This document shows, piece by piece, positions 9,551 through 40,988 of a DNA stretch of 64,000 bases; positions within the stretch are counted from its first letter, which is position 1, and each line of letters starts with the position of its first letter. Position numbers and translations under genes: made by a program. The stretch is from contig NZ_CP059066.1 in assembly GCF_017301615.1 (NCBI RefSeq), positions 1,781,001 through 1,845,000 of the forward strand, written 5' to 3'. The notes beneath the pieces were generated by a model. That model worked only from the letters and a program-made list of their open reading frames with translations, ran no database searches and was not told the origin of the DNA. This stretch comes from Koleobacter methoxysyntrophicus (GTDB taxonomy: Bacteria; Bacillota; Thermosediminibacteria; Koleobacterales; Koleobacteraceae).

Positions 9551-9722
9551 AGCTATTCTCCTTTTTAATACATCATTCATTATTTATAATCTTAAAGTTT
9601 CTACATGAATAGCAAAAACCCTTTTCCATTGAAAAAGAAGGAATATTTGAATATATACCGAATACTTATTATAAAATATAATATGAATTTGGCAATTGTA
9701 ATTGGCATATTTAAAAATCGTC

Positions 9723-9823
9723 ATTTCTCCGAACCAGAGGACTAAGGGAAATAATTCCTATGAAATCTGGTCGCCAGGGTGTATCTGGAAACGGATATGC
9801 CTCCCTTATCGGAAAGGAGAAAT
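9723..9823 (+). ncRNA. Moco riboswitch aptamer
   Basis: A molybdenum-cofactor RNA motif heading the Moco operon. P1 is an 8-bp perfect helix, ATTTCTCC (9723-9730) with GGAGAAAT (9816-9823). Inside, ACCAGA (9733-9738) pairs with TCTGGT (9766-9771). The conserved core GCCAGGG, then GGATATGCCTCCC, then TATCGGAAAGG closely follows the E. coli moaA leader, which has CCAGGG ... GCCTCCC ... TATCTGGAAAGG. Everything downstream for 6.5 kb makes or uses Moco, which supports the call. Whether it senses Moco or tungsten cofactor cannot be told. Confidence 0.92.
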
Positions 9824-9874
9824 TTAATCAAATTTCCCGGCTGTTCCGATAAGGGGCAGTCGGTTAATTTATTT
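9803..9874 (+). promoter_or_regulatory. Predicted expression platform of the Moco riboswitch
   Basis: CCCTTATCGGAA (9803-9814), part of the aptamer core and P1 neck, is perfectly complementary over 12 nt to TTCCGATAAGGG (9844-9855). The latter lies in the loop of a second hairpin, CCGGCTG (9837-9843) with CAGTCGG (9857-9863), followed by TTAATTTATTT. The two pairings exclude each other. Inference: with ligand the aptamer folds and the downstream hairpin, a weak terminator, forms; without ligand the 12-bp helix replaces both. Confidence 0.65.
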
Positions 9875-9946: not shown

Positions 9947-10123
9947 ATGGAATTGAAAAGGGAGATAATAGAAAGGATTGCAATGAAATGCCCGGATGGG
10001 GAAATTACCTGCCGAAAGGCATTCCAGCTTGCAGATGAACTGGGAATCACTTTGAGGCAGATGGGGGAGGCCCTGAATCAGTTGAAGATAAAGATTACGG
10101 GCTGTCAGTTAGGATGTTTCTAG
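9947..10123 (+). CDS. Small conserved protein of the Moco operon, 58 aa
   Basis: ATG 9947 follows AAGGAGGGA at 9932-9940, the best start in this frame; the longer open frame upstream runs through the riboswitch and is not coding. The protein looks like a small winged-helix or helical fold: residues 3-13 helical, then CPDGEITCRKAFQLADELGI and a recognition-like helix RQMGEALNQLK. It ends in ITGCQLGCF, a C-x3-C pair. As first gene after the Moco riboswitch it may be a Mo/W-related regulator or metal-binding accessory. I do not recognise a named family. Confidence 0.75.
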   Translation: MELKREIIERIAMKCPDGEITCRKAFQLADELGITLRQMGEALNQLKIKITGCQLGCF

Positions 10124-10149
10124 AAAATATGAGAACAGGGGGTTTTTTT

Positions 10150-10827
10150 ATGGATAGATCCGGGGAACTTAAAGATAAAATCCTGGAATGGGGCGGGAGC
10201 GATGTGGGGTTTTCCAGGGTAGAGGATTTTCTGCCACAGGCACATAAGCATCTAAAATGGGCTGTTACCGTTGTTTTTCGCCTTTCGGACCAGATTATCA
10301 ACGATATTTCTGAAGGTCCAACCCATACCTATTTTCACCATTACAGGCATGTAAATGCACTGCTTGACCAAATAACCCTGAGAGCCTCTTCCCTCATTCA
10401 GGAATGGGGGCATCTTGCTATGGCTGTTCCCGCATCCCAGACCGTTGACAGGGAAGGTTTTAGAGGCTTTTTCCAGCACAAAACGGCAGCAACCAGGGCG
10501 GGTCTGGGGTGGATCGGAAAGAATGCCCTGCTGATTACCGGGAAGTACGGGCCGAGGGTAAGGCTTGCAACTATATTGACGGATATGCCCCTTCCTGAAG
10601 GGGTGCCTGTTGAAGAAAGCGGATGCGGTAACTGCAGGGAATGTGTTTTGAGGTGTCCCGCTCTGGCCCTGAGGGGGGAAAACTGGGCCCCCGGTAAGGA
10701 AAGAAGCCTCCTGGTTGATGCCCTGGCGTGCAGCACATATATGAAGGAACATTTCGGTCATATAGGCAGGGGTTCAGTATGCGGAATGTGTATTGAAGCC
10801 TGTCCCAGGGGTAGGGGTAACCGTTAA
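10150..10827 (+). CDS. QueG-like 4Fe-4S double-cluster protein
   Basis: 225-aa protein beginning ATG 10150 after AACAGGGGG. The middle (AATRAGLGWIGKNALLITGKYG) is the core of the epoxyqueuosine-reductase-like family. Two cysteine groups follow: CGNCRECVLRCP (a complete C-x2-C-x2-3-C-x3-CP ferredoxin motif) and CGMCIEACPRG near the C-terminus, implying two [4Fe-4S] clusters. QueG is about 310-380 aa, has a cobalamin-binding N-terminal domain and acts on tRNA; this protein is shorter and sits in a Moco operon, so an electron-transfer or reductase role linked to the cofactor is more likely than queuosine synthesis. The extreme C-terminus and stop codon lie in a duplicated 17-bp sequence. Confidence 0.75.
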   Translation: MDRSGELKDKILEWGGSDVGFSRVEDFLPQAHKHLKWAVTVVFRLSDQIINDISEGPTHTYFHHYRHVNALLDQITLRASSLIQEWGHLAMAVPASQTVDREGFRGFFQHKTAATRAGLGWIGKNALLITGKYGPRVRLATILTDMPLPEGVPVEESGCGNCRECVLRCPALALRGENWAPGKERSLLVDALACSTYMKEHFGHIGRGSVCGMCIEACPRGRGNR

Positions 10828-10917
10828 AGCAAAGCAGCAGCAGCACTGCTTAAAATGGGAAGCAATACTGCTTAAAATGGGAATAGATAAAAAGTGAAGT
10901 TAACCGTTAAAGCAAAG
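10818..10917 (+). repeat. Nested short direct repeats between the QueG-like gene and moeA
   Basis: TAACCGTTAAAGCAAAG occurs at 10818-10834 and again at 10901-10917. ACTGCTTAAAATGGGAA occurs at 10845-10861 and 10867-10883, a 22-base period. The first copy of the 17-mer supplies the last codons and TAA of the QueG-like gene; the second runs into the moeA ribosome binding site. This looks like a recent local duplication. Confidence 0.85.
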
Positions 10918-10927
10918 GGGTGAAGAG

Positions 10928-12157
10928 ATGCCGGAATTCTTTAAAGTTATGTCAGTGGATGAAGTTAAGGAAAAGATACGGGAATGGTTCGGCCACTTAA
11001 AGCCTGAAGGGGAAAGGGTACCTATTGAAGACGGCCTTGACAGGGTGCTGTTTGAGGATGTAATATCCCCTGAAAACCTGCCCGGCTTTGACAGGTCCGC
11101 GGTGGATGGATATGCCCTGAAAGCGGAGGATACCTTCGGGGCATCGGAAGCAATGCCGGCACTCCTCGAAGTCATAGGGGAGATAGGGATGGGCCAGGTG
11201 CCTGCCATGTGTTTGGGTTCCGGACAGGCTGCGGGAATATCTACCGGAGGCATGCTGCCCGAAGGGGCCGACAGCGTTGTGATGATTGAAGATACCGATT
11301 TACTAGGAGATAAAACCCTTAACATATATAAAGCCGTATCCCCTGGGGAGAATGTAATAAGACGGGATGAAGATATAAAAAAAGGAGAAACCCTATTAAA
11401 GAAGGGCCACCGCCTCAGGCCCCAGGATATAGGTGCACTGGCCGGGGTGGGAATTACCCGGGTTGACGTTTCTAGGAGGCCCAGGGTAGTTATTATATCT
11501 ACGGGGGATGAGCTGGTAGAACCCGCTGCAGTACCCCGTATAGGGCAGATAAGAGATATTAATTCATATACCCTTTCGGGCCTTGTCCAGCAGTACGGAG
11601 GAGAACCGCTCAGGTTCGGCATAATACAGGATACCTATAATGCCCTCTTTGAAGCAGTCGAAAAGGGCATTGCAGAAGGCGACATGGTGGTAATATCGGG
11701 CGGAAGTTCAGTGGGGACCAGGGATGTAACGGGAAGGGTTATCGGGGATTTAGGAAGCCCCGGTGTCCTTGTCCACGGTGTATCGGTAAAACCCGGAAAA
11801 CCCACGATTATAGCCTCCGCGGGCGGAAAACCCGTATTGGGGTTACCCGGGCACCCCGTATCTGCCATGGTCATATTCGGAATCTTCGGAAGGGAAATTA
11901 TCAACCTAAAACTGGGTTACAGGGGTGGCAGCCTGAAGGTAAAAGCGGTAATGGGCAGGAATATAGCCTCTTCTGCCGGGAGGGAGGATTATATCAGGAT
12001 TTCACTGATAGAAAATCACGGACAGCTGACAGCCATCCCGGTTCTAGGGAAATCGGGGCTGATTTCCACTATGGTTAAGGCCCGCGGCACGGTGAAAATT
12101 CCTGCCTGTAAGGAAGGGATACGGGAAGGGGAGCCGGTGGATGTGGAGATTTTTTAA
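10928..12157 (+). CDS. moeA: Molybdopterin molybdenumtransferase MoeA
   Basis: 409-aa enzyme inserting molybdate (or tungstate) into adenylated molybdopterin. It has the four-domain MoeA layout: DRSAVDGYAL near residue 57, then TGGMLPEGADSVVMIED, the MogA-like catalytic domain with STGDEL and SGGSSVGTRD, GLPGHPVSA, and a C-terminal beta domain. ATG 10928 follows AAGGGGTGAAGAG. It is followed after 20 bases by a second, fused moeA. Confidence 0.95.
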   Translation: MPEFFKVMSVDEVKEKIREWFGHLKPEGERVPIEDGLDRVLFEDVISPENLPGFDRSAVDGYALKAEDTFGASEAMPALLEVIGEIGMGQVPAMCLGSGQAAGISTGGMLPEGADSVVMIEDTDLLGDKTLNIYKAVSPGENVIRRDEDIKKGETLLKKGHRLRPQDIGALAGVGITRVDVSRRPRVVIISTGDELVEPAAVPRIGQIRDINSYTLSGLVQQYGGEPLRFGIIQDTYNALFEAVEKGIAEGDMVVISGGSSVGTRDVTGRVIGDLGSPGVLVHGVSVKPGKPTIIASAGGKPVLGLPGHPVSAMVIFGIFGREIINLKLGYRGGSLKVKAVMGRNIASSAGREDYIRISLIENHGQLTAIPVLGKSGLISTMVKARGTVKIPACKEGIREGEPVDVEIF

Positions 12158-12177: not shown

Positions 12178-14106
12178 TTGAAAAGAAGAGATATATATCT
12201 GGATAACCTTCCGGTTGATGAAGCAAAACGGAGATTTATGGAGCGCCTTGAAGAGCTCGGTGCCCTTAGGCCCCTTAACGGAGAGAAGATCCCCGTTTCC
12301 TCTTCCCTGGGAAGGGTTACGGCAGGGGCTGTGTACGCTAAAATTTCTTCTCCCCATTACAACTCTGCAGCTGTGGACGGTATTGCCGTGAGGGCACGGG
12401 ATACCTTTGGGGCCTCTGAAACGAACCCTGTCAGGCTTACGAAAGAGCAGTGCAGATACGTGGATACGGGTGATCCCCTTCCGGATGGATTCGATGCCGT
12501 TGTCATGGTCGAAGATATTCAGCCCCTTGAAAACGGTGAGGTGGAACTGATTTCAGCCGTATACCCGTGGCAGCACGTAAGGCCTATAGGGGAAGACATA
12601 GTAGCTGCCGAAATGATACTTCCCGAAAATCACAGGATCAGGCCGCAGGATATAGGTGCTATGCTGGCGGGGGGCGTCCTGGAGGTTGAGGTCAGGAGGA
12701 GGCCCGTAGTCTCCATAATACCTACGGGCACAGAACTGGTCAAACCCGGTTCGCCTTTAAATCCCGGTGATATCACTGAATACAATTCAGAGGTCCTTAA
12801 GGGCTTTGTCCTTGAATGGGGAGGAACCGCAAATATATCGGATATTAAGGCAGATGATTATTCCCTCATCAGGGATGAAATCCTTAAGGCCCTGAGTACT
12901 TCGGATATCGTTATTGTAAATGCCGGTTCTTCGGCCGGTTCCGAGGACTATACTTCTTCGATAGTGGAAGAAATTGGGGAACTGCTGGTCCACGGTATTG
13001 CATCCAAACCGGGGAAACCGGTAATTCTCGGCATTGCAGGGGGAAAACCGGTAATAGGGATACCCGGATATCCCGTTTCTGCTGTCCTGGCCTTTGACCT
13101 TTTTGTAAAACCCCTGGTTTTCAGGCTTCAGGGGACTCTTCCACCGGAACGGACCAGGATAAAGGCCACAGCTGCCAGGAAGATACCTTCAAAAATCGGG
13201 GTCGAAGAATACCTGAGGGTGAAGCTGGGTGATGTGGGAGGCAGGATGATAGCAACCCCTCTGGCAAGGGGTGCAGGGGTTATTACTTCCCTTGTAAGGG
13301 CTGACGGTATCCTAAAGATTCCGGCTCCCCTTGAGGGCTTTCATGCAGGTGAAGAAATCGAGGTAGAGCTCTTGAGGGAAAAGAGGGATATCGAAAACAC
13401 GGTAGTCGTTATAGGCAGCCACGATTTAGCCCTGGACATCCTGGGTGACCATATCAGGAGGAGATACCCCCATATTTCCCTTTCTTCTGCCCATGTGGGC
13501 AGCATGGGAGGTATAATGGCCTTGAAAAAGGGGGAAACCCACGGGGCCGGTATTCACCTTTTGGACCCCGAAACAGGGGAGTACAACATACCCTATCTCG
13601 AGAAATACCTACCCGGCAAGGAGATTGTCCTTGTAAATCTGGCCTATAGAGACCAGGGGATTATGGTTAAGAAAGGGAATCCGAAGAATATAAAGAATGT
13701 GGGCGACCTTGCCAGAGAAGGGATTACCTTCGTAAACCGTCAGAAGGGGGCAGGGACCAGGCTTCTCCTCGATTATGAACTTAAGAAGCTCGGAATATCA
13801 CCTGAAAGAATAATGGGCTATGAGAGGGAAGAGTATACCCATATGGCGGTAGCGGCTGCTGTAGCCGGAGGTTCGGCAGATGCAGGTCTTGGAATACTGG
13901 CTGCAGCTAATTCCCTTGGCCTTGACTTCATACCCGTTGCCCGGGAAAGATACGACCTGGCTATACCGGCAGAATTCATGGGACTTGAAAGGGTTAAGGC
14001 TATGCTGGAAACAATAAATACCCCGCAGTTCAAAAAGGCCCTGGAGGCCTTAGGGGGATATCATACTGAAAAGACAGGGGAGGTCTTAAAGGAGGGACGG
14101 GTATGA
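12178..14106 (+). CDS. MoeA fused to a periplasmic-binding-protein-like domain
   Basis: 642 aa from TTG 12178 (GGGGTGAAA upstream). Residues 1-405 are a complete MoeA paralog: YNSAAVDGIAVRARDTFGAS, DAVVMVED, PTGTELVKPG, NAGSSAGSEDYT, GIPGYPVSAVL. Residues about 410-640 are a PBP-like domain (PF12727 type): VVIGSHDLALDILGDHI, then VNRQKGAGTRLLLDYELKKL and a segment for ligand closure. Such domains bind molybdate or tungstate in ModA/TupA relatives. Note GSEDYT replaces the GTRDVT form of the first MoeA. Two MoeA copies often split Mo and W duties in anaerobes; which does what is not visible. Its TGA overlaps the moaA start by 4 bases. Confidence 0.9.
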   Translation: MKRRDIYLDNLPVDEAKRRFMERLEELGALRPLNGEKIPVSSSLGRVTAGAVYAKISSPHYNSAAVDGIAVRARDTFGASETNPVRLTKEQCRYVDTGDPLPDGFDAVVMVEDIQPLENGEVELISAVYPWQHVRPIGEDIVAAEMILPENHRIRPQDIGAMLAGGVLEVEVRRRPVVSIIPTGTELVKPGSPLNPGDITEYNSEVLKGFVLEWGGTANISDIKADDYSLIRDEILKALSTSDIVIVNAGSSAGSEDYTSSIVEEIGELLVHGIASKPGKPVILGIAGGKPVIGIPGYPVSAVLAFDLFVKPLVFRLQGTLPPERTRIKATAARKIPSKIGVEEYLRVKLGDVGGRMIATPLARGAGVITSLVRADGILKIPAPLEGFHAGEEIEVELLREKRDIENTVVVIGSHDLALDILGDHIRRRYPHISLSSAHVGSMGGIMALKKGETHGAGIHLLDPETGEYNIPYLEKYLPGKEIVLVNLAYRDQGIMVKKGNPKNIKNVGDLAREGITFVNRQKGAGTRLLLDYELKKLGISPERIMGYEREEYTHMAVAAAVAGGSADAGLGILAAANSLGLDFIPVARERYDLAIPAEFMGLERVKAMLETINTPQFKKALEALGGYHTEKTGEVLKEGRV

Positions 14107-15074
14107 AGGACAGATACGGAAGGGAAATAGAGTATTTAAGGATATCAGTAACGGACAGGTGCAATTTCCGGTGCCGGTACTGTATGCCTGAAGATGGGGT
14201 AATCCCCAAGAGTCACGATGACATCCTGACCTTTGAAGAGATGGTAGATATAGTAAAAGTCGGCATTGCTGCAGGGATAAATAAGATAAGGGTAACAGGG
14301 GGAGAACCCCTTGTCAGAAAGGGGACTGTTGATTTTATTGCCAAACTCAAACGAGTCAGCGGTATAAAGGATATATCCATGACCACCAACGGTTCCCTTC
14401 TGGCCGAGATGGCTGTTCCTCTGAAAAAAGCGGGCCTTGACAGGGTAAATATCAGCCTCGATACATTACAGCCCGACAGATTCAAGTGGATAACCAGAAC
14501 GGGCTGCCTTGCCGAGGTCTTAGAAGGAATGGAAAAGGCTCTGGATGCAGGCCTTTCCCCCGTTAAGGTTAATTGTGTCATCTCAAAGGGGTTCAATGAT
14601 GACGAACTAGAAGATTTTATTTATCTGACACACCATTATCCCGTTCATGTTCGTTTTATCGAACTAATGCCCTTGGGAGATGACGAATGGTCCAGAAACG
14701 GTTATATCCCTAACGGTGAGTTGATTAAAAGAATCAAGCAGACCCTTAAGCCCGTTGAAGGGGTAAGGGGTAATGGCCCTGCCGTATATTACAGGGCACA
14801 GGGAGCGATTGGAACCATAGGCTTTATAAGCCCGTTAAGCCAGCACTTCTGTGGAAGGTGCAACCGCTTGAGGCTTACCGCCGACGGCAAGTTGAAGCCC
14901 TGCCTCGAATCCGATGTGGAGTTTGACATTAAAGGTGTTATAAGACACGGAGGCGGTGAAGAAGATATCAAAAGGGTTTTCAGAATGGCCGTCGAAGCAA
15001 AACCCCTCCACCACAACATGGTTCAGGGGGAATACAGGGCAAGGAACCGAAAAATGTCCCAGATTGGAGGGTAG
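14103..15074 (+). CDS. moaA: GTP 3',8-cyclase MoaA
   Basis: 323-aa radical SAM enzyme for the first step of molybdopterin synthesis (GTP to 3',8-cyclo-7,8-dihydro-GTP). The N-terminal radical SAM motif is CNFRCRYC (residues about 18-25), with GGEPLVRKG for SAM binding. The C-terminal auxiliary cluster is present: CGRCNRLRLTADGKLKPC. The protein ends in Gly-Gly (SQIGG), which reaches into the active site. ATGA overlap with the upstream gene implies translational coupling. Confidence 0.97.
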   Translation: MKDRYGREIEYLRISVTDRCNFRCRYCMPEDGVIPKSHDDILTFEEMVDIVKVGIAAGINKIRVTGGEPLVRKGTVDFIAKLKRVSGIKDISMTTNGSLLAEMAVPLKKAGLDRVNISLDTLQPDRFKWITRTGCLAEVLEGMEKALDAGLSPVKVNCVISKGFNDDELEDFIYLTHHYPVHVRFIELMPLGDDEWSRNGYIPNGELIKRIKQTLKPVEGVRGNGPAVYYRAQGAIGTIGFISPLSQHFCGRCNRLRLTADGKLKPCLESDVEFDIKGVIRHGGGEEDIKRVFRMAVEAKPLHHNMVQGEYRARNRKMSQIGG

Positions 15075-15078
15075 GTAT

Positions 15079-15561
15079 ATGGAATTTACCCATTTTAATG
15101 AAAACGGCAGAGCAAAAATGGTGGATGTATCCGAAAAACCCGATACCCTCAGGGAAGCCGCTGCAGCCGGAAGAGTATTTATGAAGGCGGAAACCCTTAA
15201 ATTGATTGAACAGGGCGCTGTTAAAAAGGGCGATGTGCTGGCAGTAGCCCAGGTAGCCGGAGTAATGGCTGCTAAAAAAACGGGTCACCTGATCCCCATG
15301 TGCCATCCCCTGTTTCTTACGGGTATAGACCTGAACTTCAATATTGACAGGGAACGGTTCTGTATCGAAGTCGAAGCGGTGGTCAGGACCCTGGGTAAAA
15401 CGGGCGTTGAGATGGAGGCGCTGACGGCAGTATCGGCGGCATGTTTAACCATATATGATATGTGTAAGTCGGTTGACAGGGAGATGGTTATCTCTGATAT
15501 CCGGCTGATGAAAAAAAGCGGGGGAAAGAGCGGGGAATTTGTTCGGGTAGAAAGTAAATGA
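15079..15561 (+). CDS. moaC: Cyclic pyranopterin monophosphate synthase MoaC
   Basis: 160-aa partner of MoaA that rearranges cyclo-dihydro-GTP to cPMP. It opens with THFNENGRAKMVDVSEKPDT and carries the family motifs KKTGHLIPMCHPLFLTG and GKTGVEMEALTAVSAACLTI. The catalytic lysine and aspartate region (MCKSVDREMVI) is intact. ATG 15079 follows GGAGGGTAGG; a longer in-frame opening overlaps moaA and is not used. Confidence 0.97.
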   Translation: MEFTHFNENGRAKMVDVSEKPDTLREAAAAGRVFMKAETLKLIEQGAVKKGDVLAVAQVAGVMAAKKTGHLIPMCHPLFLTGIDLNFNIDRERFCIEVEAVVRTLGKTGVEMEALTAVSAACLTIYDMCKSVDREMVISDIRLMKKSGGKSGEFVRVESK

Positions 15562-15594: not shown

Positions 15595-16032
15595 GTGAAG
15601 GGTAAGGTAGTTGCGGTATGCACCAGCGAGAAAAAGGGAATGAGGAAGAAAGATATCGGGAAGGGAGAGCTGATAGAGGGCTTCGGCCTGAAAGGAGATG
15701 CCCACGGAGGGGACTGGCACAGACAGGTATCCTTACTTGCTGTGGAGAGCATTGAAAAGATGCAGAAAAAAGGCCTGAAAGTAGGCCCGGGAGATTTTGC
15801 CGAAAATATAACCACAAAGGGGCTTGATCTGGTTAACCTGCCCGTTGGGACCCGCTTAAGGGTAAATGGTGCTTTGATGGAGGTTACCCAGATCGGCAAG
15901 GAATGCCATTCCAGGTGTGCTATATATTATCAGGCCGGAGACTGTGTTATGCCGAGAGAAGGCATCTTCGTGAGGGTGTTAAAGAGCGGCCCGGTACAGG
16001 TGGGGGATATTGTAGAGGTGGTTTCAGAGTGA
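15595..16032 (+). CDS. MOSC-domain protein
   Basis: 145-aa stand-alone MOSC (molybdenum cofactor sulfurase C-terminal) domain. It starts at GTG 15595 after AAGGGAGATG. It contains GDAHGGDWHRQVSLLAVESI and GPGDFAENITTKG, and a conserved cysteine in KECHSRCAIYY that is thought to carry sulfur or bind the cofactor. Members act as Moco sulfur carriers or cofactor-binding reductase modules. GTGA overlap with mogA. Confidence 0.93.
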   Translation: MKGKVVAVCTSEKKGMRKKDIGKGELIEGFGLKGDAHGGDWHRQVSLLAVESIEKMQKKGLKVGPGDFAENITTKGLDLVNLPVGTRLRVNGALMEVTQIGKECHSRCAIYYQAGDCVMPREGIFVRVLKSGPVQVGDIVEVVSE

Positions 16033-16520
16033 TAAGGGTAGGTATCCTTACAGCAAGTGATAAGGGTTATAGAGGTGAAAGGGAGGATTTGAGCGCCGGT
16101 GTCATAAAAGAGCTTGTGGCAAAGATCGACGGCAGGGTTGAGAGTTACTGCATTGTACCCGATGATAAAGAAACTATAAAACAAAAACTGCTGGATATGT
16201 GCGGGCATGGAATGGATCTCATCATCACCACCGGCGGAACGGGATTAAGCCCCAGGGATAACACCCCTGATGCCACCCTTGAGGTAATAGAAAAGGAGGT
16301 TCCGGGTCTTTCGGAAGCTATGAGGGCAGAAGGATATAAAAAAACCCCCCATGCCCTTCTTTCAAGAGGTGTATGCGGGATAAAGGGGTCAACCCTTATT
16401 ATAAACCTTCCGGGCAGCCCCAAAGGGGTTAGAGAAAACCTGGAGGTTATCCTTCCTGCCATTCCCCACGGCATCCAGGTCCTGAAGGGAAAGATATCCG
16501 ACTGCGGTTCGGGAGAATGA
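16029..16520 (+). CDS. mogA: Molybdopterin adenylyltransferase MogA
   Basis: 163-aa enzyme that adenylates molybdopterin before MoeA acts. GTG 16029 overlaps the MOSC stop by 3 bases. It shows VGILTASDKGYRGEREDLS, the binding loop TTGGTGLSPRDNTPDATLEV and LPGSPKGVRENLEVILP, all typical of MogA/MoaB. With moaA, moaC and moeA this gives most of the pathway; moaD/moaE (molybdopterin synthase) and a MoeB-like activator are not in the window. Confidence 0.93.
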   Translation: MIRVGILTASDKGYRGEREDLSAGVIKELVAKIDGRVESYCIVPDDKETIKQKLLDMCGHGMDLIITTGGTGLSPRDNTPDATLEVIEKEVPGLSEAMRAEGYKKTPHALLSRGVCGIKGSTLIINLPGSPKGVRENLEVILPAIPHGIQVLKGKISDCGSGE

Positions 16521-16552: not shown

Positions 16553-17344
16553 ATGAAACAAAAAACGGTGGTGATGGTTTTGAACAATTCTGATGAAAAG
16601 CTTTTTGAAGCACGGATAAAGGACTTGATAAACATAGCCCAAAAAAATGCAGTAAAGAGGGCGAGCAATTTCCTTGATCCGGGAGAACAGCAGATGGCCG
16701 AATATATTGCCGGAAAGTTTCCCGGAATAGGATTTTATTTTGAAGGGGGTTACCCTGAAGCCGAAAGGAGGATAATGATAGTGTTTCCCGATTACCTAGA
16801 AGAACAGCCTTTTGTACCTCCTCTTGGAGCCCTAAGGGTTACTCCCACCGGTGACCATAAACACCCCGGGCACAGGGATTATCTGGGAGCAATCCTCGGG
16901 CTGGGTATTGCCCGGGAAAAGACGGGAGACCTGCTGGTGGGCAGGGAGCACTGCGATGTAATCCTTAAAGAAGAAGTCCTGGAATATATAGGCCTTAACC
17001 TCGCAAGGGTAGGCAGTGTTCCGGTATCGGTAGAAGAGATTTCCATAAGAGAAATTTCACGGCCTAATGCAGCCTTTAAGGAGGTAAAAGGCACCGTTGC
17101 TTCTATGCGGCTGGATGCTGTTGCCAGCCTTGCCTTCGGCATATCACGATCGAAAATAGCACCTTATATAAAAGGCGAAAATTTAAGGGTTAATTTTAAA
17201 ACCGTAAAAGACCCTTCAACACCGGTTAAGGAGGGGGATGTGATTTCAGCTGCCCGCCTCGGAAGGATCAAAGTGATTGAAGTGGGAGGGCAGAGCAAAA
17301 AAGGGAGGACTTTTATTAAAATCCATAAATATGCGTCAAAATAA
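16553..17344 (+). CDS. YlmH-family S4-domain RNA-binding protein
   Basis: About 263 aa. The N-terminal two-thirds match the YlmH domain (FLDPGEQQMAEYI, GDHKHPGHRDYLGAILGLGI, then GDLLV). The last 80 residues are an S4 RNA-binding domain (MRLDAVASLAFGISRSK, then GENLRVNFK). YlmH in Bacillus lies in the division/ylm cluster and has been linked to ribosome rescue; here it follows mogA by 32 bases and may be an operon passenger. The start is uncertain: ATG 16553 has little ribosome binding site, whereas TTG 16580 follows GGTGGTG. The 3' end overlaps the convergent glycosylase gene by 9 bp. Confidence 0.88.
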   Translation: MKQKTVVMVLNNSDEKLFEARIKDLINIAQKNAVKRASNFLDPGEQQMAEYIAGKFPGIGFYFEGGYPEAERRIMIVFPDYLEEQPFVPPLGALRVTPTGDHKHPGHRDYLGAILGLGIAREKTGDLLVGREHCDVILKEEVLEYIGLNLARVGSVPVSVEEISIREISRPNAAFKEVKGTVASMRLDAVASLAFGISRSKIAPYIKGENLRVNFKTVKDPSTPVKEGDVISAARLGRIKVIEVGGQSKKGRTFIKIHKYASK

Positions 17345-21230: not shown

Positions 21231-21413
21231 ATTTTAAGTCCTCCTGTTTTATCCTGTTCCTTATACCTTTCAACAAGCAAGTTGATAGAATTCCGTTAAC
21301 CGAAAACTATCCTTTGCGTGATATTGCCAATTCCCTCCTATACCCGATACGTTCATTGATAGTTTTTGTTCAATTCAGGGTAATTATACTTTTTGCCACA
21401 GCGGGGTGATTAT

Positions 21414-22127
21414 TTGAAAACACTGTATTTAGATTGTTTTTGCGGCATAAGCGGTGACAAGATGCTGGGCTTGCTGGTGGATTTAGGGGTAAATTTAGAT
21501 GTAATAATAGAGGGTATTAACAAAATGGGGGTTTCCGGTTTCCTGATAAAGGCTGAAAGGAAGAAATCCGGTTTTATAGAAGGCACGAATGTGTGGGTTA
21601 ATGTTTATGAAGAACAGCCCTATAGAAATCTAAAGGATATTATTCAAATGATAGAATCCAGCACATTGGCAGAAAATATAAAGGGCATGTCAAAGCAAAT
21701 GTTTTATAACCTGGCCAGGGGAGAGGCAAAAGCCCACGGTCAGGACGAGATGGAATTGCTCTTCCATGAAAAGGGTGCCGTAGATACGATAGTCGATATC
21801 GTCGGCACGGCAATAGGAATACACGAACTGGGATTTGACAGGGTTTATTCATCCCCCCTGCATCTGGGCTCCGGTTTCTTGAAAATGGGAGAAAAAAGGA
21901 TTCCCATACCCAGCCCTGCGGCAATAGAGATATTGAAGAGTGTTCCCGTATATTCCAGCGGCATTCCTGCAGAGCTGGTAACACCGACGGGAGCTGCCAT
22001 TGTTGTTACCCTTGCCGAGGAATTCAGGGCATTACCCCCTATGGCTATAGTTAAGGTGGGTTATGGGTGCGGTAAGCGGGAACTGGAGATTCCCGATATG
22101 CTCAGGGGAGTTGTTATGAAGGCTTAA
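21414..22127 (+). CDS. LarC N-terminal half (LarC1-like), nickel-pincer cofactor family
   Basis: 237 aa from TTG 21414 (GCGGGGTGAT upstream). LYLDCFCGISGDKMLGLLVD and FHEKGAVDTIVDIVGTA match the start of LarC, which inserts nickel into the lactate-racemase pincer nucleotide. It also has TPTGAAIVVTLAEEF and ends GYGCGKRELEIPDMLRGVV. Full LarC is about 400 aa, or two ORFs (LarC1 and LarC2) joined by frameshifting in Lactobacillus. Here no LarC2 sequence follows; guaA begins 43 bases later. The His-rich linker usually at the LarC1/LarC2 border is also missing. No larA, larB or larE is nearby. Confidence 0.8.
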   Translation: MKTLYLDCFCGISGDKMLGLLVDLGVNLDVIIEGINKMGVSGFLIKAERKKSGFIEGTNVWVNVYEEQPYRNLKDIIQMIESSTLAENIKGMSKQMFYNLARGEAKAHGQDEMELLFHEKGAVDTIVDIVGTAIGIHELGFDRVYSSPLHLGSGFLKMGEKRIPIPSPAAIEILKSVPVYSSGIPAELVTPTGAAIVVTLAEEFRALPPMAIVKVGYGCGKRELEIPDMLRGVVMKA

Positions 22128-26438: not shown

Positions 26439-26465
26439 GTACAATTTTTTTTATTCCCGTTAAAT

Positions 26466-26556
26466 CAAATCCCTACGCTGGCATTACCCAGATCAGGTTA
26501 GAGGGTCTGAACCTTTGGTTCACTCTCAGCCGGCCTAACCAGCTCCCCTTTTTGCA
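26466..26556 (-). ncRNA. TPP riboswitch
   Basis: On the minus strand the THI-box sequences are all present: GGGGAGC at the 5' side, GGCTGAGAG, ACCCTCTAACCTGATCTGG and TAATGCCAGCGTAGGGA. It senses thiamine pyrophosphate and controls thiM-thiE-phosphatase through the terminator that follows. Confidence 0.98.
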
Positions 26557-26732
26557 GTATTTTATTTTTTACTTCAGTTAGATTATACAATCTTTTTTTT
26601 GGATGGTCAATACACCAAATACAAAAAATTCTGCAATAACCCGGAGGTTAATTAACAACTATTACCTTGGCAATTTTCAAAAAAAGATGTTAGAATAAAG
26701 TTGTTAAGTTACTGCAAAAAGGAGGCATACAT

Positions 26733-40624: not shown

Positions 40625-40767
40625 AATTTCTAGAAAACCTTATCTGGATTTAAATCAACTCTATATAGCCCCATTCCTGTTTGGAAGGTAGTGTCATCAG
40701 TCAGAGAAGGATTAACTTGCAAAATCCCCGATAAAATGGTAGTATAAAAGCATAAAAAACTTTGAAT

Positions 40768-40945
40768 ACAACAGGCTGTGGTACCGTTTCGGTTTAAAAG
40801 TGAAAGCGGTGAGAATCCGCTACAGCCCCCGCTACTGTGAGTGAGGACGAAACCCACTGCCGCTACTTGGCGGTAAAAGCCACTGGATTCGTTCCGGGAA
40901 GGTGTGGGAAGTAGGAGGAATCACGAGTCAGGAGACCTGCCGCAG
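40768..40945 (+). ncRNA. Cobalamin (B12) riboswitch
   Basis: The leader shows GTGAGAATCCGCTACAG, CCCCCGCTACTGTGA, the B12 box AAAAGCCACTGG, GGGAAGGTGTGG and GAGTCAGGAGACCTGCC, in the normal order. It senses adenosylcobalamin and heads the cbi operon. A terminator lies 45 bases downstream. Confidence 0.98.
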
Positions 40946-40988
40946 TTAAAAAGACCTTCGGGTGGAAGGCATTAATAATAAGCAAAAG

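Follow-up and report, generated by a model that had tools for sequence, protein, structure and literature searches.

The first gene behind a Moco riboswitch of Koleobacter methoxysyntrophicus encodes a 58-aa protein, called SMALL in the following, which, judged by its sequence, is a member of a real and so far undescribed family. We propose, with a probability of roughly 45%, that SMALL is an accessory protein dedicated to the metal-insertion step in Mo/W cofactor synthesis, probably biased towards tungsten, and that the gene for a QueG-like Fe-S protein next to it is an insertion. The first-pass annotation had ascribed accessory roles in Mo/W cofactor handling, or in feeding electrons to a molybdoenzyme, to both proteins; this interpretation is partly supported, in that it holds for SMALL and fails for the Fe-S protein. 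SMALL, as a possible missing component of Mo/W insertion with a mechanism that we infer, merits the attention of specialists.

The window, i.e. the whole stretch of 64,000 nucleotides that was analysed, is part of a complete 3.10-Mb genome. The riboswitch, the 58-aa ORF with a C-x3-C tail and the 225-aa ORF with two [4Fe-4S] motifs are all present as first described, and the gene order 3' of the switch is SMALL, the 225-aa Fe-S gene, moeA, moeA-PBP, moaA, moaC, MOSC and mogA. The features are as follows:

9715..9835, + strand: Moco/Tuco riboswitch aptamer RF01055 (cmscan 66 bits, gathering 36)
9837..9863, + strand: candidate intrinsic terminator (putative expression platform), an 11-pair stem followed by TTAATTTATT
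9947..10123, + strand: ORF of SMALL (58 aa, undescribed family) with GGAGG as ribosome-binding site
10010..10012, + strand: codon of SMALL Cys22, a residue found in 72 of 72 phylum sequences
10103..10120, + strand: C-terminal tail CQLGCF of SMALL (C53, C57, F58), where conservation in the family is highest
10150..10827, + strand: 225-aa double-[4Fe-4S] protein, probable compact QueG/reductive dehalogenase relative; outside the conserved operon
10818..10834, + strand: 17-nt perfect direct repeat TAACCGTTAAAGCAAAG, copy 1, in which the Fe-S gene has its stop codon
10839-10882: AGCAGCACTGCTTAAAATGGGA, a 22-nt unit repeated in tandem (91%) in the gap separating the Fe-S gene from moeA
10901..10917, + strand: 17-nt direct repeat, copy 2, just 5' of moeA
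10928..12157, + strand: moeA (MoeA_N, MoCF_biosynth, MoeA_C)
12178..14106, + strand: moeA with a C-terminal PBP-like domain (NF011068 811 bits, cut-off 534; PF12727)
14103..15074, + strand: moaA (TIGR02666 380 bits, cut-off 284)
15079..15561, + strand: moaC, ORF
15595..16032, + strand: MOSC-domain protein, ORF
16029..16520, + strand: mogA/moaB-type molybdopterin adenylyltransferase, ORF

The families of the last three ORFs were assigned from sequence alone. Directly 3' of mogA, the window encodes a YlmH/Sll1252-like S4 RNA-binding protein (16553-17344; TIGR03069 143 bits, cut-off 201.6).

With 66 bits the window switch clears the Rfam gathering threshold of 36 for RF01055, a membership that does not need P3, the hairpin proposed as the mark of the Mo-sensing type. 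Based on the RF01055 alignment, the window aptamer has no P3-equivalent internal hairpin, the consensus hairpin GUGGCAAUUUGCCAC being deleted. According to Regulski et al., P3-less RNAs go with users of the tungsten cofactor and were proposed to be its sensors (PMC2408646); the window switch is of this P3-less class, the proposed tungsten type. The hairpin at 9837-9863 may serve as the expression platform of the switch; in the centroid fold its loop can pair alternatively with aptamer sequence on the 3' side (CCCUUAUCGGA/UCCGAUAAGGG).

Relatives of SMALL are encoded in 14 of 61 related genomes at E <= 0.01, and an independent scan of a collection of 84,980 species genomes yielded 143 loci with confirmed relatives, distributed over Bacillota, Deltaproteobacteria, Nitrospirota, Actinomycetota, Chloroflexota and other phyla, demonstrating that the 58-aa frame is not a chance ORF. 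As the first family alignment was too variable for the collection scan, a sub-alignment with the pattern IKI[TIA]xCQLG was used. The pattern residues are therefore conserved by construction in the scan-derived alignment, and tail conservation was re-measured on 72 distinct sequences from the window's phylum, none of which had been selected by the tail motif. The C-terminus of SMALL reads ...GCQLGCF, i.e. C53-x3-C57-F58. The tail C-x-L-G-x-F is found in all 72 sequences and C57 in 70, while the final F58, or one residue past it, is the end of the protein in 71. C57 is replaced by Leu, Ile or Ala in tandem-domain members and in some single-domain ones, which leaves C22 and C53 as the most constant cysteine pair. 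The tandem two-domain proteins, with tails CQLGLF and CQLGAF, are encoded at L056 2689-3123, L083 9974-10330, L091 4322-4600 and L099 3536-3922.

SMALL is small enough for annotation to have skipped it, and no model scores above its cut-off, either from Pfam or NCBIfam for the window protein or from Pfam for 74 family members. DUF7645 (PF24655) reaches 15.6 bits for the window protein, with a gathering cut-off of 27, and matches 11 of the 74 members at E <= 0.05; it is possibly a distant relative, at most. A sequence profile run against the PDB returned only designed alpha-toroids and chance matches, CQLGCF was not found in the literature searched, and titles and abstracts on switch-linked Moco genes and small proteins contained no switch-linked small protein of this kind. 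The 2008 riboswitch paper lists 'genes of unknown function' in an operon of Syntrophomonas wolfei.

In the window's phylum SMALL is closely associated with the Moco pathway. A profile search finds it in 91 of 239 genomes, and MoaA is present in 90 of these 91 genomes compared to 80 of the 148 without SMALL (Fisher p 1e-16). As 80 MoaA-positive genomes lack SMALL, the pathway as such can do without it. Neighbourhoods were counted at 73 phylum loci, with the window's own locus additional. At 70 of the 73 a Moco gene follows on the same strand within 2.5 kb, the next sizeable gene is moeA at 60 and moaA at 6, and the median gap between SMALL and the next Moco gene is 14 nt. Since Moco genes are located upstream at only 2 loci, it is SMALL that opens the operon. 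A Moco-type switch is found 39-461 nt upstream at 42 of the 73 loci, and both P3-containing and P3-less switches head SMALL operons. Thus, within this phylum SMALL co-occurs with moeA, moaA and Moco riboswitches, and the Moco-linked accessory role first suggested for the 58-aa protein is supported by these counts and by the MobB-like fusion described below. At several loci a gene resembling 5-formyl-tetrahydrofolate cyclo-ligase or fdhE lies just 5' of SMALL (L021, L123, L135, L138, L139, L170; L128, L133, L144).

A possible partner of SMALL is a MobB-like P-loop NTPase of 201-217 aa, of which SMALL forms the C-terminal part in three genomes (G104, G221 and G245):

L199 298-952, + strand: fusion of a MobB-like P-loop NTPase with SMALL
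L200 5989-6625, - strand: fusion of the same kind
L201 6926-7532, - strand: fusion of the same kind

In two of the three genomes (L199 and L200) moeA directly follows the fusion gene. All three fusions are without C57, so that the full tail is not needed in them. The fused NTPase matches the MobB model TIGR00176 with E-values of 2e-7 to 6e-7 and 21.7-31.2 bits, below the cut-off of 76.2, and is best described as MobB-like rather than as MobB. A profile of this NTPase has strong matches in only four phylum genomes, namely the three with fusions and G067, where the NTPase gene lies directly 5' of SMALL; hence all four strong matches adjoin SMALL or are fused to it, while the weaker matches in the phylum look like the expected MobB background. 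At 11 of 15 Nitrospirota loci this NTPase gene is likewise near SMALL, usually touching or overlapping it. Among known systems, MobB (TIGR00176 / PF03205) compares as the partner in a MoeA-MobB platform: the NTPase fused or adjacent to SMALL resembles it, and in Methylorubrum MobB works with MoeA, the MoeA1-MobB platform being indispensable for inserting tungsten; fusions of MoeA with MobB are known as well (PMC13197769). In contrast, SMALL is a protein other than MobB, the fused NTPase stays below the family cut-off, and the window genome has a separate true MobB (C1:2035708, 144 bits).

The AF2 model of SMALL (pLDDT 81) comprises helix 5-14, strand 19-21, helix 22-32, helix 36-45 and strand 49-51 in a helix-turn-helix (HTH) arrangement. 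Fold comparison ranks DNA-binding domains of the homeodomain-like kind highest, with Z 5.8-6.7 over 44-47 residues; as such values are commonplace among small helical folds, this match says little about function, and Foldseek matches have E-values of 0.56 or worse. Based on the three-helix HTH and its homeodomain-like matches, SMALL might be a transcription regulator of its own operon, i.e. a minimal HTH protein with cysteines as sensors of metal or redox state. We consider this unlikely, given not only the common Z range and the Foldseek values but also that the fusion partner is an NTPase and not a regulator and that the riboswitch already controls the operon. Furthermore, the putative recognition helix is not basic: its mean net charge is negative, and this slightly acidic character argues against DNA binding.

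FeoC, the small winged-helix protein that partners the FeoB GTPase, has not been shown to bind DNA (PMC7762939). The likeness to SMALL is that of a very small HTH or winged-helix-like protein paired with a P-loop NTPase for the handling of metals. The SMALL model is HTH-like with two short strands, FeoC lies outside the listed fold matches, and the Pfam profile of FeoC matches none of the 74 SMALL members (E <= 0.05) nor the window protein (E <= 1). FeoC belongs to another pathway, and while it has cysteines of its own, the conserved cysteines of SMALL are located at the extreme C-terminus. A conserved cysteine in a C-terminal tail is also a feature of DsrC/TusE-type proteins. The tail cysteine of SMALL could likewise reach into a partner; the C-x3-C spacing is different and no sequence relation is seen.

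Considering the NTPase fusion and adjacency together with the MoeA1-MobB precedent (PMC13197769), the simplest joint reading is that SMALL acts as a docking and thiol accessory of the insertion step. Its HTH core would be a docking module on MoeA and the MobB-type NTPase, and not a DNA-binding domain, while the tail C-x3-C-F and Cys22 would act at the active site of the partner, either as a thiol or metal site or as a swinging arm. An ample supply of cofactor would make the switch turn off SMALL along with moeA.

A preference for tungsten is suggested by the distribution of AOR-type genes, of which the window genome has six. Among 170 MoaA-positive phylum genomes they occur in 83 of 90 with SMALL compared to 45 of 80 without (p 4e-8), and after collapsing 77 families by majority in 38 of 41 compared to 16 of 36 (p 4e-6). 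The association supports a tungsten link without proving one, as AOR also marks strict anaerobes and a shared anaerobic lifestyle could explain it. Because SMALL operons also run under P3-containing switches, tungsten specificity would be a tendency only. For the choice between tungsten and molybdenum at the insertion step SMALL would be an obvious candidate for a missing component, since it heads the Moco operon in over a third of the phylum's genomes, precedes moeA, tracks tungsten enzymes and can be part of a MobB-like NTPase. It may even be the missing tungsten-selectivity factor of anaerobes, a docking protein with three cysteines that, together with the MobB-type NTPase, controls the choice of the metal put into the pterin by MoeA. 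We regard this far-reaching version as quite improbable; if true, the presence of SMALL would predict the use of tungsten.

The location of SMALL away from Moco genes in Deltaproteobacteria and most Nitrospirota counts against an exclusive Moco function. Moco genes are near SMALL at 0 of 24 deltaproteobacterial loci (6 kb), at 1 of 15 in Nitrospirota, 1 of 6 in Chloroflexota and 0 of 10 in other groups, while at Actinomycetota loci fdhD and mobA are found beside SMALL in 4 of 4, moaD in three and AOR in two. Either the family has a wider role outside the window's phylum or the SMALL genes are unlinked to their partner genes there. These non-Moco contexts, the three conserved cysteines, and the genes for CoA activase, RACo and radical SAM proteins beside SMALL in Deltaproteobacteria could all be accommodated if SMALL served the activation of metalloenzymes in anaerobes generally, as a thiol/Fe-S or redox module without Moco specificity; Bacillota and Actinomycetota would have recruited it to the Moco operon, other phyla to CoA-activase/radical SAM and heme operons. 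We consider such a generic function doubtful, albeit conceivable: in the window's phylum the Moco link is nearly exclusive (70 of 73 loci), and the Nitrospirota NTPase partner is MobB-like, so that this context, too, leads back to the handling of the cofactor.

The deltaproteobacterial gene order is (TetR), SMALL, radical SAM protein (310 aa), CoA activase (1390 aa, BcrAD + DUF2229); genes for RACo and an FMN reductase are frequently close by (L029, L031, L033, L035, L037, L040, L043, L045, L052). This unit looks like another activation system that uses SMALL. A compact unit of Nitrospirota has the order topA, MobB-like NTPase, SMALL, ccsA/hemX and hemA with touching or overlapping frames (L054, L063, L081, L092 and others); the presence of this Moco-type pair of NTPase and SMALL within a heme operon is unexplained.

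The 225-aa Fe-S protein is probably a compact member of the QueG/reductive-dehalogenase cobalamin superfamily, in which the cobalamin-binding fold appears to be retained in compact form. It matches Fer4_16 (34.7 bits, cut-off 30) and, partially, QueG TIGR00276 with 57.3 bits, far below the cut-off of 200, while the window genome encodes a true QueG elsewhere (305 bits); it therefore does not group with true QueG. With QueG and the reductive dehalogenases it shares both [4Fe-4S] motifs (CxxCxxxCP and C...CGxCxxxCP), the AGLGWIGKN segment and the best fold matches, which for the AF2 model (two sequences, pLDDT 52.5) are QueG (Foldseek E 4.5e-6), reductive dehalogenases and further B12 proteins such as CblD and MMACHC; at this model confidence the matches serve as a hint only. 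It differs from QueG, besides the low score, by a missing insert, by ending after the second Fe-S motif without the C-terminal HEAT-like repeat domain, and by the QueG VD-S/T-G loop, which is replaced by PASQ...HK. This is the loop of the catalytic Asp (Asp134 of B. subtilis QueG), and a nearby Asp of the window protein is not kept in orthologues. The first-pass annotation had described the protein as lacking the full N-terminal domain of QueG; according to the low-confidence model the missing parts are rather the insert and the C-terminal domain.

The Fe-S protein is found at 0 of the 73 other SMALL loci in the phylum, and its relatives in none of the other Moco operons examined. Close orthologues (46-74% identity) are encoded in 10 genomes among unrelated genes. 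MoaA is present in 7 of the 11 genomes with a close orthologue compared to 163 of 228 others, i.e. there is no enrichment, and SMALL in 1 of the 11, the window's own (p 0.06). The neighbourhood survey thus places homologues of the Fe-S protein mostly away from Moco genes, and the Moco accessory role that had been suggested for it is not supported. In the window genome the two genes are adjacent, co-directional and under one switch, as would be expected if SMALL and the QueG-like protein acted jointly in Mo/W cofactor handling or electron supply. With the Fe-S protein absent from the other SMALL loci and its orthologues elsewhere, a function as a pair is unlikely; the survey largely refutes joint action, which we now regard as extremely improbable. 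Instead, the Fe-S gene looks like a lineage-specific local insertion between SMALL and moeA, and the repeats between it and moeA fit a recent local rearrangement.

Two apparent connections of the Fe-S protein were rejected. The 605/612-aa neighbours of its orthologues had been considered as tungsten AORs; their sequences look like a lipoprotein and polysaccharide pyruvyl-transferase-like. A relative near SMALL in L084 is 33% identical and lies 5.5 kb upstream among unrelated genes. Distant paralogues of the Fe-S protein recur 5' of a 465-500-aa and a 316-330-aa gene (L186-L189, L191, L195). In L186 the gene of the 316-330-aa class looks like selD and is followed by a TusA-like gene, suggesting a role near selenium or sulfur metabolism.

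Elsewhere in the window, immediately 5' of guaA, a LarC-like nickel-pincer-cofactor protein of only 244 aa is encoded (21393-22127), which appears to be the N-terminal half; the C-terminal half is not seen downstream. Further riboswitches in the window are a cobalamin switch at 40762-40958 (+) and a TPP switch at 26453-26559 (-).
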